Below are positions 5,399 to 39,370 of a stretch of DNA of 64,000 bases, piece by piece (position 1 is the stretch's first letter; the number at the start of each line of letters is the position of its first letter). The position numbers were made by a program, and so were the translations under genes. Below the pieces are notes generated by a model. The model ran no database searches and was not told the origin of the DNA. It saw only the letters and a program-made list of their open reading frames with translations. The DNA comes from Petrotoga mobilis SJ95 (lineage in GTDB: Bacteria > Thermotogota > Thermotogae > Petrotogales > Petrotogaceae), in the NCBI RefSeq assembly GCF_000018605.1, contig NC_010003.1, positions 186,001 to 250,000 of the forward strand, read 5' to 3'.

Positions 5399-5947
5399 AT
5401 GGCTTTGAAGATTGAAAGCGGCAAATTTAAGAATACCAATATAGAAACAGTTGATGATCGTAGGACGAGATATACTCCCGCTACTTTAAGAAGAGCTCTG
5501 ATAAGCATTTTTGATTTTACAGGAGCTAATTTTTTAGAATTTTTTGCAGGTAGCGGCATAATGAGTTTTGAAGTTTTAAGTAATGGGGCAAAAAGTTCTA
5601 CAATGGTTGATATTTCGACTAAGGCCGTGAGCTCGATTTTAAAAAACGCTGAATCTTTAGGGGTACTAAATAAAATAAAAGTTATAAAATCAGATTTTAG
5701 AAAATCTATTACAAAACTTTCAAATGAACAGTTTGATTACATATTTGCTGATCCACCTTTTAATAACAGTTATGTCCAAGAATTTTTGAAATTCATAGAT
5801 TCAAATGTATTTTTAATTAGAAACGGCGGCTACATCATTATTGAAAAATATAAGAATGAAAAATCTGATTATATACCTAAAAATTTAATTAGAGAAGAAG
5901 TAAGAGATTACGGTGATATTGAAATTCTAATCTTTTTTAAACCTTAA
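5399..5947 (+). CDS. rsmD: 16S rRNA (guanine966-N2)-methyltransferase RsmD
   Basis: 182 residues, the usual RsmD length. The N-terminus carries the family pattern K-x-x-x-T-R-Y-T-P-A-T-L-R-R-A-L-I-S-I-F. The SAM-binding motif I is FLEFFAGSGIMSFE (about 45-58). The catalytic motif IV is ADPPFNN (about 119-125), as expected for N2-guanine methylation. It modifies G966 of 16S rRNA in the small subunit. The start ATG follows GAGGTG by 7 bases. A strong hairpin shared with the small RNA on the other strand ends transcription right after the stop. Confidence 0.93.
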   Translation: MALKIESGKFKNTNIETVDDRRTRYTPATLRRALISIFDFTGANFLEFFAGSGIMSFEVLSNGAKSSTMVDISTKAVSSILKNAESLGVLNKIKVIKSDFRKSITKLSNEQFDYIFADPPFNNSYVQEFLKFIDSNVFLIRNGGYIIIEKYKNEKSDYIPKNLIREEVRDYGDIEILIFFKP

Positions 5948-5976
5948 AAAAAGGGCCTTAATAAGGCCCTAATTTG
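5945..5976. terminator. Bidirectional intrinsic terminator (rsmD / small RNA)
   Basis: A perfect 8-bp stem AGGGCCTT (5952-5959) / AAGGCCCT (5963-5970) with a 3-base AAT loop. Read leftward it ends in TTTTTTT, ideal for the small RNA on the minus strand. Read rightward it is followed by AATTTGG, a weaker tail for rsmD. Confidence 0.85.
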
Positions 5977-6039
5977 GAAATGAATTCTTCCGGGGACAGA
6001 ACACTCCAGGAGGGAGGGTAACCTACAAAAGTGCTCTGT
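5946..6039 (-). ncRNA. Candidate small regulatory RNA with C-rich loop
   Basis: Read leftward, a promoter (-35 TTGAGA at 6073-6068, 16-base spacer, -10 TATAAT at 6051-6046) predicts a start at A6039. From that base the transcript immediately forms a 9-bp stem (6039-6031 with 6004-5996, one G-U pair). The stem encloses a 26-base loop rich in C, with core ACCCTCCCTCCTGG. A linker of about 25 bases follows, then a perfect terminator hairpin and seven Ts near 5946. The total is about 95 nt. No convincing ORF fits. Open loops of CCCTCC type are known in Gram-positive sRNAs that bind Shine-Dalgarno sequences. It does not carry the 4.5S/SRP, 6S or tmRNA landmarks. Expression is inferred from the signals only. 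Confidence 0.62.
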
Positions 6040-6045
6040 AGAGAT

Positions 6046-6073
6046 ATTATACATCATGAAATTTTTTTCTCAA
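6046..6073 (-). promoter_or_regulatory. Promoter of candidate small RNA
   Basis: TTGAGA (6073-6068) and TATAAT (6051-6046) on the minus strand, 16 bases apart. It lies in the 165-base gap between rsmD and the alkaline phosphatase gene, and points away from the latter. Confidence 0.68.
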
Positions 6074-6135: not shown

Positions 6136-7338
6136 TCAATAAATCTCAAAAATAGAAAAAATTTCATTATTTGATATTATATTTTTATCAAATGGAACGT
6201 TGGAAAAAAGAGGTACGTAATCTAATGTATGCCCAAAAGTACTCCAATTTATACCCACAGGATCGTTTAACGCTTCATAAAAACTTTTGATTATTGGCGA
6301 TTGATAAGTTACATTTTCTTCTGAATTCTTGGTATCGTAAAACTCTTTTTCTAAATCAAGCGTCAAACCCAATTTTTCTTGAAACTCTTCATAGTTCTTA
6401 GATTGGTTAAATGTACTTATCAGCTTTTCATAAGAAAACTCAGTGGGTTGAAGCTTATTCAGCGCCAAAAAACCATCGCCTAAACTCAAACCTCCTGTTG
6501 AATGATCCGCAGTTACTATGATTAAGGTTTCTTGAGGATATTGCTTATAAAAATCGATAGCAACTTTTACTGCACTATCAAAGTCTAATATTTCGTTTAT
6601 CAATGAATAAGTATCATGTGCGTGTGCAGCGTGATCGATTCTTCCCCCCTCTATCAGAATGAAAAAAGGAGAACCTTTAAATTTACTCAACGCATAATTT
6701 AAAGTTTCTTCTAACGTAACTCTTTTCGGATCGTCTGTTAAAAAAGTAAAATTTCCATAATACAACATAACAATTTCATTACCAGGAAACGGAATTTTAC
6801 TTAGTTCTTCTGTGTATAAATATCCATACTCTTTTGTGTTTCTATCCTTAAAATAAGCTTTTCCTCCCCCTATGAAAAGATCAAAATTGCTTTCTAAAAG
6901 ATCTTGCATTATCTCTTGGTAATCTCTTCTATTTTCAACGAAACTATAAGCTCCCGCCGGGGTAGCATCGATGATGGTGTTAGTTGTTATGACACCAATT
7001 TTGTACCCTCGTTTTTTTAATTCATAAGTAATGGGCAGTATCTTTTCATCATCAGGATTAATGTTTATCCTGTCGTTGTAGGTTTTTTCTTTAGATAAAA
7101 TTGCCGTTATGGCTGCTGCTGAATCCGTTACTCCGTTAATCGAAGAAGTTTCAACCATTCCATAGTAAGGTAGTTCAAGCATGTGCAGTTGATCTGTGTA
7201 TAAATATTGTTTGTACATATTAGATAACTGCATATGTGGAATTCCCATTCCATCGGCTATAAACAAAAAAACATAGTCAAATGAAAAAGAAAAATACCCT
7301 AAAAGGGCAAGGAGAAAAACCAACAGAATTTTTTTCAC
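6136..7338 (-). CDS. phoA: Alkaline phosphatase, exported
   Basis: 400 residues from a GTG at 7338, which sits 7 bases after GAAGGTG; an upstream in-frame GTG (7347) lacks room for a ribosome site. The N-terminus KKILLVFLLALLGYFSFSF is a signal peptide. The alkaline phosphatase superfamily sites are present: metal ligand in FIADGMG, nucleophile Ser in GVTDSAAA, metal-binding GGRIDHAAHAHD, and TADHSTGG near the C-terminal third. It hydrolyses phosphate monoesters outside the cytoplasm. It is the last gene of the leftward group. No Pho box was identified. Confidence 0.92.
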   Translation of the reverse strand: MKKILLVFLLALLGYFSFSFDYVFLFIADGMGIPHMQLSNMYKQYLYTDQLHMLELPYYGMVETSSINGVTDSAAAITAILSKEKTYNDRININPDDEKILPITYELKKRGYKIGVITTNTIIDATPAGAYSFVENRRDYQEIMQDLLESNFDLFIGGGKAYFKDRNTKEYGYLYTEELSKIPFPGNEIVMLYYGNFTFLTDDPKRVTLEETLNYALSKFKGSPFFILIEGGRIDHAAHAHDTYSLINEILDFDSAVKVAIDFYKQYPQETLIIVTADHSTGGLSLGDGFLALNKLQPTEFSYEKLISTFNQSKNYEEFQEKLGLTLDLEKEFYDTKNSEENVTYQSPIIKSFYEALNDPVGINWSTFGHTLDYVPLFSNVPFDKNIISNNEIFSIFEIY

Positions 7339-7356
7339 TTCTAACACCTTCGTTGT

Positions 7357-33461: not shown

Positions 33462-33515
33462 TAAAAAACATAGAAAAAAGAACGGGGAAAAGATCGACAG
33501 AGGGAGGGTATAATA

Positions 33516-36997: not shown

Positions 36998-39370
36998 ATG
37001 AAACTAACTTTAAGTGATTTTGAAATTAAAATCCCAGATATCAAAATCGATAACACTTCAGAAATAAAAATTGGTTCTTATCAAGATTACACCATACAAA
37101 CGGATGCTTGTGAAATTTTACAATTTGCCTTGGAAAGCAGCAACGATTCAAACAATGTTTTCTTAGTTGGTCCAAATCGTAGTGGTAGAAGAGGTATGAC
37201 TCGAAAGATAATCGAAAGAATATCGTTAACTCAAAAAGCTCCTCAAGATCTTATGTATGTTTTTAATTTTAAGGAAGAAAAGAAACCCAAGTTGTTGAAA
37301 CTGCCCGCCGGAGAAGCCAAAAATTTCAAATCTGAATTGCAATCTATTATTAATTCCTCTGTACAAGTTTTAAATAAAACGATGCAGACAGAAGAATTTC
37401 AACAAAGGTTAAGTTCGTTAGAAAAAGAATACAACGAGCAGAGGGAAAAATTGTGGTCAGATCTGAGAAAACAGGCTCAAGCTCTTGGTTTTATACTTGA
37501 GGCTTCTGAAAAAGGTATAGTGAGCGTTCCAGTGTACGATGGCAAAAAAATAAGCACCTCTGAGTTTGAAAATCTTCCGGAAGAGATAAAAGAGTATTTT
37601 CGAAAAAATTCCGAGAAGTTGCGAGAATTAATTGAAAAAACAATGGTAAAGATCACGGAGATGGATAAAGAATACTGGGAGGAAGTTAAAAACTTACGAC
37701 GTTACTGGGCAGCTTTTAGCTTAGCTAAGCTTTTCGAACCCCTTGAAAAGAAATATCTCAAATATTCTGATGTTTTTGAATACCTTCAAAACTTGAAAGA
37801 GGACATAGCTTCTCACCTATCCCAATTAACTTCCGAAAATCAAAATCTAATAACTTATCTTAAAGAAAAAAGATACAATGTCAACATTATAGTGGATAAT
37901 TCTTATCTACAAGGTGCACCTGTGATAGAAGAAGACAATCCCACTTTTTCAAATTTAGTTGGTAGAATAGAGTATTATTCCCAAATGGGACTCCTTCAAA
38001 CGGATTTTACAATGATAAAATCTGGAGCTTTTCACAGGGCAAACGGTGGTTATCTAATAATGGAAGCAGAAAAAGTTTTAAGAAAACCTTACGCGTGGGA
38101 GGTAATTAAAAGGTTTTTATCGGAGAAAGAAGTAAAAATTGAAAATATTCAAACCGCTGAAGGCTATTCGAGTGTTGAAAGTTTGGAACCAGAACCTTTA
38201 TCTTTAACCGTTAAAGTGATTCTCATAGGAGAAGAATGGGTGTACAATTTATTAAGAGTTTACGATAGCGAATTCGAAAAACTTTTTCCCATAAAATCAC
38301 AATTTGACTATGAGGCAGAGTTAAGCAACGAGAATTTAAATAAATTTTTAGCTTTCTTAAGCAACACAGTGGAAGAAAACGATATCTCACACTTTACAAA
38401 AGATGCGATTGAAGAGATTATCAAGTACAGTTGTAGGATGAATGGAAACAACAAAAGGTTCTCCTTAAGATTGGGGGAAATTAAGAATCTACTAATAGAC
38501 TCTTTCAACATTTCACGGAAAAATGGATCAAGCCCATACATAACCGCCAAAGATATAAAAGATACTACAAAGTTTAGAGAAAAAATGTTTTCCTTTCATA
38601 AGAAAAAATTATTTAATGCGATAAAAGAACAAAAGATTGACATAAGAACTGAAGGCTCTGAAGTCGGACAAATAAATGGATTGACTGTTTTGGATACAGG
38701 AGATTTCACCTTTGGGCATCCCGTCAAAATAACAGCAAAAAGTTACAGATCCTCTTCTGAAAAAATCATAAACATACACAGGGATATCGATTTAAGCGGG
38801 AAAATATACAAAAAATCCTCATTGATCATAGAAAACTATTTCAAACATAAATTTTCTTCTTTCATAGAAACAGGTTTCGGTGTATCTTTAAATTTTGAAC
38901 AAGTTTATTCTATCATCGAAGGAGACAGCGCTACAATAGCAGAAACGCTGGCTTTAATGTCTTCCATAGCTAACATTCCATTGAAACAAAATATTGCCAT
39001 CACCGGATCTATGAATCAAAACGGAGAAGTTTTGCCAGTTGGAGGAATAATCGAAAAAATTGAAGGATTTTACGACGCCTGTAAAAATCTCAATTTTACT
39101 GGAGATCAAGGGGTGATTATTCCAAGTAAAAATATCGATAATATCGTATTGAAAGACGAAATAAATGAAGATATACAAAATGGAAAGTTCCATATTTGGG
39201 CTATTGATAATATAGATGAAGGGATCGAACTAATGACAGATTACAAAGCAGGGACACCAAATGAAAACGGTGAATACGAAGAAGGCACATTTTATTACTA
39301 TGTAAGTGAAAACCTCAAGAAATTATCAAAAGAGGAGAAAAAAGAAAAAGACGAAAAAGATAACAAATAG
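36998..39370 (+). CDS. Lon-family ATP-dependent protease (LonB/COG1067-like)
   Basis: 790 residues. It lacks the N-terminal domain of classic Lon. The AAA module begins near residue 55 with a P-loop-like FLVGPNRSGRRGMTRKI, in which the usual GK[ST] reads GRR, so nucleotide binding is atypical; Arg at this place recurs in this subfamily as far as I recall. A long coiled insert spans about 125-280. The C-terminal Lon protease domain has the Ser in EGDSATIAETLAL and the Lys in GEVLPVGGIIEKIEGFYDAC, so the Ser-Lys dyad is intact. The acidic/basic tail ends KEKDEKDNK. It is a soluble quality-control protease by family. It is preceded by the G-tract repeat leader. Confidence 0.88.
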   Translation: MKLTLSDFEIKIPDIKIDNTSEIKIGSYQDYTIQTDACEILQFALESSNDSNNVFLVGPNRSGRRGMTRKIIERISLTQKAPQDLMYVFNFKEEKKPKLLKLPAGEAKNFKSELQSIINSSVQVLNKTMQTEEFQQRLSSLEKEYNEQREKLWSDLRKQAQALGFILEASEKGIVSVPVYDGKKISTSEFENLPEEIKEYFRKNSEKLRELIEKTMVKITEMDKEYWEEVKNLRRYWAAFSLAKLFEPLEKKYLKYSDVFEYLQNLKEDIASHLSQLTSENQNLITYLKEKRYNVNIIVDNSYLQGAPVIEEDNPTFSNLVGRIEYYSQMGLLQTDFTMIKSGAFHRANGGYLIMEAEKVLRKPYAWEVIKRFLSEKEVKIENIQTAEGYSSVESLEPEPLSLTVKVILIGEEWVYNLLRVYDSEFEKLFPIKSQFDYEAELSNENLNKFLAFLSNTVEENDISHFTKDAIEEIIKYSCRMNGNNKRFSLRLGEIKNLLIDSFNISRKNGSSPYITAKDIKDTTKFREKMFSFHKKKLFNAIKEQKIDIRTEGSEVGQINGLTVLDTGDFTFGHPVKITAKSYRSSSEKIINIHRDIDLSGKIYKKSSLIIENYFKHKFSSFIETGFGVSLNFEQVYSIIEGDSATIAETLALMSSIANIPLKQNIAITGSMNQNGEVLPVGGIIEKIEGFYDACKNLNFTGDQGVIIPSKNIDNIVLKDEINEDIQNGKFHIWAIDNIDEGIELMTDYKAGTPNENGEYEEGTFYYYVSENLKKLSKEEKKEKDEKDNK

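Follow-up and report, generated by a model that had tools for sequence, protein, structure and literature searches.

Results

Organization of the locus

The analysed window is a stretch of 64,000 nucleotides of the Petrotoga mobilis SJ95 genome. On its minus strand, directly downstream of a phoA-like alkaline phosphatase gene, a small RNA (sRNA) gene was predicted on the basis of fold, conservation and absence of a conserved open reading frame. The features of the locus are:

6136–7347, minus strand: phoA-like alkaline phosphatase gene, the constant upstream neighbour in the neighbourhood comparison
6046–6073, minus strand: sigma-70-type promoter of the sRNA, TTGAGA-16-TATAAT, the top-scoring promoter-like site (11/12) in the first 14 kb
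5946–6039, minus strand: predicted sRNA of 94 nt
6031–6039, minus strand: 5′ arm of stem 1, ACAGAGCAC, pairing with 5996–6004
5996–6004, minus strand: 3′ arm of stem 1, GUGUUCUGU, pairing with 6031–6039
6008–6023, minus strand: putative seed 1, GGUUACCCUCCCUCCU, inside the 26-nt loop closed by stem 1
5988–5999, minus strand: putative seed 2 in the linker, CUGUCCCCGGAA, invariant in all aligned relatives
5976–5991, minus strand: hairpin 2 of the computed fold, GGAAGAAUUCAUUUCC, short, weak and variable, overlapping the 3′ end of seed 2
5946–5970, minus strand: intrinsic terminator with U7, stem 5970–5952 and U tract to 5946

The −35 element TTGAGA covers positions 6073–6068 and TATAAT positions 6051–6046 of the minus strand with a spacer of 16 nt, and the predicted transcription start is A6039. 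Both the promoter and the predicted start had been proposed in a first-pass annotation and were confirmed at the sequence level, as was the 9-bp stem that begins at the start and encloses a loop of 26 bases, which extends to 12 bp in the computed fold. The computed fold of the sRNA has −35 kcal/mol; relative to dinucleotide shuffles its z score is −4.8, and 0 of 200 shuffles were as good. In the computed ensemble the unpaired probability is about 0.6–0.7 for seed 1 and 0.43–0.80 for seed 2. The same annotation had described the terminator as shared back-to-back with rsmD; the leftward terminator with U7 stands, but the case for sharing is weak, as the hairpin is followed on its rightward side by TAATTTGG without a T run. 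The scan listed the terminator on the minus strand only, and rsmD is absent beside the sRNA in three genera.

A conserved reading frame was not found in the sRNA, in line with the earlier description of a unit without ORF; the only frame, starting with GTG, is broken by a 1-nt insertion in genome G008, and a coding RNA was therefore rejected. Having a promoter, a terminator and no conserved ORF, the locus is predicted to be an independent short transcription unit, and it is present as a single copy in the host genomes according to the covariance model search. The palindrome TGAGAAAAAAATTTCA over the −35 element was considered as an operator and rejected, its frequency being estimated to be about that expected by chance and the palindrome being lost in G006, G008 and G009. 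A similar sequence, TGAGAAATTTTTTTCA, is located upstream of a hutH-like gene in the hut region.

Comparison with known RNA families

At the Rfam gathering threshold the whole window contained one tRNA only and nothing at the sRNA locus, and a permissive search of the sRNA itself returned chance-level matches to unrelated families, with no RsaE up to E = 10. The single match of the genome to SRP RNA (RF00169) above the cut-off is located elsewhere, at G000:1619454. Covariance models of 6S RNA and other curated families gave no match at the sRNA locus, and neither did that of GcvB; the seeds are C-rich and not G/U-rich. A CsrA sponge of the CsrB/RsmZ type was rejected as well, since only one GGA, that of the linker, is invariant and the GGA of the loop is absent in G009 and G006. 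These negative results agree with the earlier statement that landmarks of SRP, 6S, tmRNA and RNase P RNA are missing. The RNA chaperone Hfq is encoded at G000:1488926.

Conservation and distribution

The locus was recovered by DNA search in genomes of the own genus and of other genera of the same family. A covariance model built on seven members was used with strict filters to search 103 genomes of the phylum and detected the sRNA in 12 genomes from 6 genera of its own family (E < 1e-12), while the family's genera g6 and g8 and the rest of the 103 genomes gave nothing convincing. When GTDB genomes, from which close relatives may have been excluded, were scanned with the exact pattern, a single record was matched, a Thermotogota MAG. 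Candidates for homologues outside the family were weak matches (E 0.04–1), and those inspected were without the architecture of the sRNA; matches to GGTTATCCTCCCACTT in g6 correspond to the rpmE/S1-domain intergenic region, and no sRNA was present beside the phoA homologues of g6 and g8 genomes in the sequence read.

In every listed genome the TATAAT element is identical and is separated by 6 nt from the start of the RNA. Of 52 core positions, 34 are invariant across six distinct sequences, including UACCCUCCCUC in the loop and CUGUCCCCGGAA in the linker; the second of these C-rich segments, with its invariant part UGUCCCCGGAA, had been overlooked in the first-pass annotation together with the likely regulon. 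The pairing of stem 1 is kept in 98.3% of cells, compared with 33–62% for slid controls. One pair of this stem is altered on both sides and four are altered via one-sided changes, with six further pair types; the covariation is limited (69 of 500 shuffles do equally well) because the sequence conservation is so high. In G006, G008 and G009 another hairpin of greater length takes the place of hairpin 2, and the terminator stem varies among genera yet remains paired (GGGCC, GGUCC, GGCCCG, AGGCC, AGCCC).

In all seven other genomes with an examined neighbourhood the phoA-like gene lies directly upstream of the sRNA on the same strand. On the downstream side four of them have rsmD, and the other three, G006, G008 and G009, have an O-antigen-ligase-like/TPR gene. 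Loss of both stem and loop in relatives had been named as a refuting outcome, and stem, loop, promoter and terminator are all kept, even in the three genera in which the rsmD side is replaced. The conserved signals, core and pairing, combined with a changing downstream neighbour, therefore point to an independent unit under selection.

Matches of the loop to ribosome-binding sites

Targets of seed 1 were searched with the loop complement, allowing up to 3 mismatches, or with its exact core ACCCTCCCTC. The complement was found at the ribosome-binding sites of gltB (UAGGAGGGAGGGUU immediately 5′ of the AUG), proA (GAGGGAGGGU 5′ of the start), a nifV-like gene, metQ and others. Further leaders with seed 1 matches were those of alr (G007), hom and the argD-argG junction (G003), metQ and glgP (G008/G009), and a transporter gene was also among the matches of G008. 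Among nine genomes of the family that do not carry the sRNA, the core gave one match (G010). The proA site is located within the window:

33483–33509, plus strand: candidate site in the proA leader, CGGGG (seed 2) followed by GAGGGAGGGT (seed 1), just 5′ of GTG 33516

The computed energy of the loop with the proA ribosome-binding site was −17 to −23 kcal/mol in 9 of 9 sRNA-carrying genomes of g1, g3 and g7 and −7 to −12 kcal/mol in 7 of 7 sRNA-less genomes of g6, a comparison confounded by phylogeny. In G006 the proA leader has no strong site (−7.7 kcal/mol) despite the presence of the sRNA. In G003 the hom gene (L155, contig C38, near 83178) seems to carry a frameshift close to its start, either a mutation or an error of assembly; its leader retains GAGGGAGGGT.

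The nifV-like gene was named as a homocitrate synthase gene by its match to NCBIfam nifV_homocitr. Its leader carries AGGAGGGAGGGU in seven genomes, and in G013 and G007 it carries AGGAGGGTGGGU; AGGAGGG(A/T)GGGU is found in 9 of 9 genomes, in G003 with one further base change. In every case the same leader (L172–L180, e.g. G000:C1:1866602-1866657) also contains a conserved hairpin between Shine-Dalgarno motif and start codon, whose arms change in a compensating manner from genus to genus (GUACG/CGUAC, GUACAC/GUGUAC, GUGCGC/GCGUAC) and which may be a separate structured regulatory leader. Another observation concerns a presumed urocanate hydratase gene (L159, G000:C1:255085; also L157, L151 and L165), in which GAGGGAGGGTA, the exact complement of the loop core, occurs in the coding region (YEGGYCP).

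Matches of the linker and genome-wide rankings

The complement of seed 2, CCGGGG, was found upstream of eight such genes, in each case at a distance of no more than 130 nt: metF, hisF, hom, leuB, ilvD, carB, gltB and gdhA. Eight of the 15 loci counted for this motif are amino acid or nitrogen genes, their functional labels having been given after the list was seen, while the composition-matched controls CCCCGG, GGGGCC and GGCCCC yielded essentially no amino acid genes (N-terminal sequences judged by eye). On a liberal reading at most 3 of 40 random ORFs were related to amino acids, giving a Fisher P of 0.0006 for the CCGGGG set against random. Taken together with the loop matches, CCGGGG and/or AGGAGGGAGGGU is present in the leaders of gltB, gdhA, proA, hom, ilvD, carB, leuB, metF and the homocitrate synthase gene; the leaders of amtB and metA match the seeds less perfectly. 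In gltB, proA, hom and gdhA, CCGGGG precedes the G-rich Shine-Dalgarno sequence, an order which fits an antiparallel duplex. Target conservation was compared across genomes for four genes; five g1 genomes retained both sites in the leaders of proA, gltB and hom, and G003 retained both in that of proA.

Hybridization energies were ranked over 2.0 Mb of the own genome with 1832 ORFs. With loop and linker combined, gltB ranked 1, proA 2, gdhA 5, amtB 6, hom 7, metQ 11 and ilvD 16, and with the linker only the top five were ilvD, a gene for an Rrf2-type regulator, carB, leuB and metA, an interspersed repeat being masked. The whole-RNA ungapped search gave the ilvD leader as best match (17 of 18 nt), with the homocitrate synthase leader (13 of 13 nt) among the next few and gltB at 12 of 12 nt; the carB and leuB leaders contain 10 contiguous nt matching the sRNA. 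Several of these genes are clustered: gltB and amtB belong to a glnA-gltB-gltD-amtB-glnB-like cluster, carB and the homocitrate synthase gene to an arginine/lysine-type cluster, and ilvD is the first gene of an ilv-leu operon. Except for glnA and the tested genes, the neighbours in these clusters, like hisF, were identified by visual inspection of their sequences.

The masked repeat is G-rich, roughly GGGTGGGGAGCGGGGCGAAGGGGCGC, and is located just 5′ of many genes, including near position 36998, with a strand bias in the sequence fetched. Its core has 32 + 73 = 105 fuzzy matches in 2.0 Mb and inflates counts of CGGGG. Elsewhere in the genome, at G000:C1:838359-839675 (L304), a gene for an IscB RNA-guided endonuclease was noted (NCBIfam guided_IscB).

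Some complementarity to Shine-Dalgarno sequences is found with any C-rich RNA. The energies of the linker were no better than those of shuffled linkers, those of the loop beat most shuffles (for the 10th-best gene, 0 of 60 shuffles were as good), and for the whole RNA 11 of 300 shuffles reached the best ungapped match, while 8 of 300 reached the number of matches of at least 12 (P about 0.03–0.04). Complementarity strength alone thus exceeds that of shuffles only modestly, and the case rests on conservation and functional coherence. Since the targets differ in G006, G008 and G009 and the proA site is absent in G006, the regulon has turned over there or was missed. At the sequence level, the sRNA gene, its conservation and the concentration of its complementarity on nitrogen and amino acid genes are demonstrated.

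Discussion

Proposed mode of action and alternative explanations

We consider it quite probable that the locus encodes a trans-acting base-pairing sRNA of about 94 nt with its own promoter, which would occlude ribosome-binding sites of nitrogen and amino acid genes. Nitrogen assimilation and amino acid genes are probably switched at the mRNA level, because two C-rich stretches of the RNA match their mRNA start regions; conserved seeds that are predicted to be unpaired and are complementary to several mRNA leaders are what is expected of such an sRNA. Stem 1 would display the open C-rich loop ACCCUCCCUCC as seed 1, which would pair with unusually G-rich Shine-Dalgarno regions, and the strand from stem 1 to hairpin 2 would display UGUCCCCGGAA as the second seed, which would pair with CCGGGG, at the Shine-Dalgarno sequence itself in carB and metF and upstream of it in gltB, proA, hom, gdhA, ilvD and leuB, thus serving as an anchor or as an alternative site. 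Binding would block the ribosome, so that less GltB, GdhA, AmtB, ProA, Hom and MetA would be made, and the products of the ilv-leu and arg/car operons and the homocitrate-synthase-like enzyme would likewise be lowered. Translational repression by Shine-Dalgarno occlusion appears to be the most economical reading, and upstream pairing may possibly stabilise some mRNAs. The complementarity of loop and ribosome-binding sites supports the post-transcriptional regulator that had been suggested in the first-pass annotation. The RNA is presumably transcribed and would pair in vivo, presumably with involvement of Hfq and in response to nitrogen or amino acid sufficiency.

Three other explanations were weighed. 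The RNA could pair broadly with G-rich Shine-Dalgarno regions, the amino acid set being mostly coincidence and the key targets being others, such as the Opp peptide transporters, glgP or a handful of further genes. The weak linker energies relative to shuffles, the high position of Opp transporter genes in the linker ranking and the other targets in G008/G009 would agree with this, but it is made unlikely by the share of amino acid and nitrogen genes among the CCGGGG loci, compared with essentially none for the control motifs, and by the retention of both sites in gltB, proA and hom and of the homocitrate synthase leader motif in all nine genomes.

An RNA with a structural or protein-binding role (SRP, 6S-like or a CsrA sponge), whose C-rich segments bind protein or rRNA and not mRNAs, would account for the extreme conservation of loop and linker and for the compact fold. 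It is nevertheless very unlikely: the SRP RNA is encoded at another locus, there is no 6S, SRP, CsrB or other Rfam match, a single GGA is conserved while that of the loop is missing from two genomes, and the leader matches would be left unexplained. Least likely of all is a cis element, be it an attenuator of phoA, a fragment processed from the phoA 3′ UTR or the leader of the gene that follows. The sRNA does always lie immediately 3′ of phoA and co-oriented with it; it has, however, its own near-consensus promoter, which in all genera stands at the same distance from the start of the RNA, its terminator precedes any downstream gene, the latter varies and is convergent in most genomes, and the conserved segments are unpaired seeds and not a switch.

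Comparison with known systems

Thermotogota are a deep branch, in which regulation by sRNAs is, to our knowledge, almost unexplored. RNA-seq of Thermotoga maritima revealed only 12–13 putative ncRNAs, for which neither structure nor targets were defined (PMC3636130), and a census lists one Rfam sRNA family for Thermotogae (PMC9029176). The sRNA described here comes from the same phylum as these ncRNAs but was found only in its own family, and no earlier report of it was found in the literature searched. In streptococcal csRNAs and Listeria LhrC-type sRNAs, which are multicopy, CCUCC-type loops occlude Shine-Dalgarno sequences; the C-rich loop mode is common to them and to the predicted sRNA, which is a single-copy RNA with no homology found to either.

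GcvB is about 200 nt long and uses a G/U-rich seed on C/A-rich targets, so that the predicted sRNA is shorter and reversed in seed and target composition. In enteric bacteria, GcvB acts as a multi-target sRNA on genes of amino acid uptake and biosynthesis (PMC11878033, PMC9409037), and the predicted targets would fit a GcvB-like amino acid regulon.

In Firmicutes, RoxS and FsrA act via C-rich regions, RoxS on Shine-Dalgarno sequences (PMC8216469), and RoxS can also activate by blocking 5′-3′ decay (PMC5419742). Unpaired C-rich regions and Shine-Dalgarno pairing are shared by the predicted sRNA and RsaE/RoxS and FsrA, which act on central-metabolism mRNAs (PMC8216469), and the C-rich unpaired motif on Shine-Dalgarno regions fits an RNA that would work like RsaE/RoxS. 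It differs from RsaE/RoxS and FsrA in phylum, neighbours and sequence, in its second seed CUGUCCCCGGAA and in a predicted regulon of nitrogen and amino acid anabolism. The likeness to RsaE/RoxS drawn in the first-pass annotation consequently holds for the mode of action, with a C-rich loop matching ribosome-binding sites, but not for the family.

We class the predicted sRNA as a new family of a kind, the base-pairing sRNAs, that is already known. On balance, with confidence slightly above even, we regard it as the first base-pairing sRNA of Thermotogota with a definable regulon: a family-specific RNA with two seeds and an origin independent of GcvB and RsaE, which would coordinate ammonium assimilation (amtB, gdhA, gltB) with ilv-leu, arg/car, pro, hom/met and homocitrate synthase via a bipartite CCGGGG...GGGAGGG leader code. 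With its two seeds and some ten concrete targets, it offers a defined RNA, which makes sRNA regulation in Thermotogota directly testable. The closest analogues are GcvB by function and RsaE/RoxS by pairing style, the sRNA belonging to neither family; if the proposal is true, a GcvB-like amino acid regulon arose independently with C-rich seeds of Gram-positive style.
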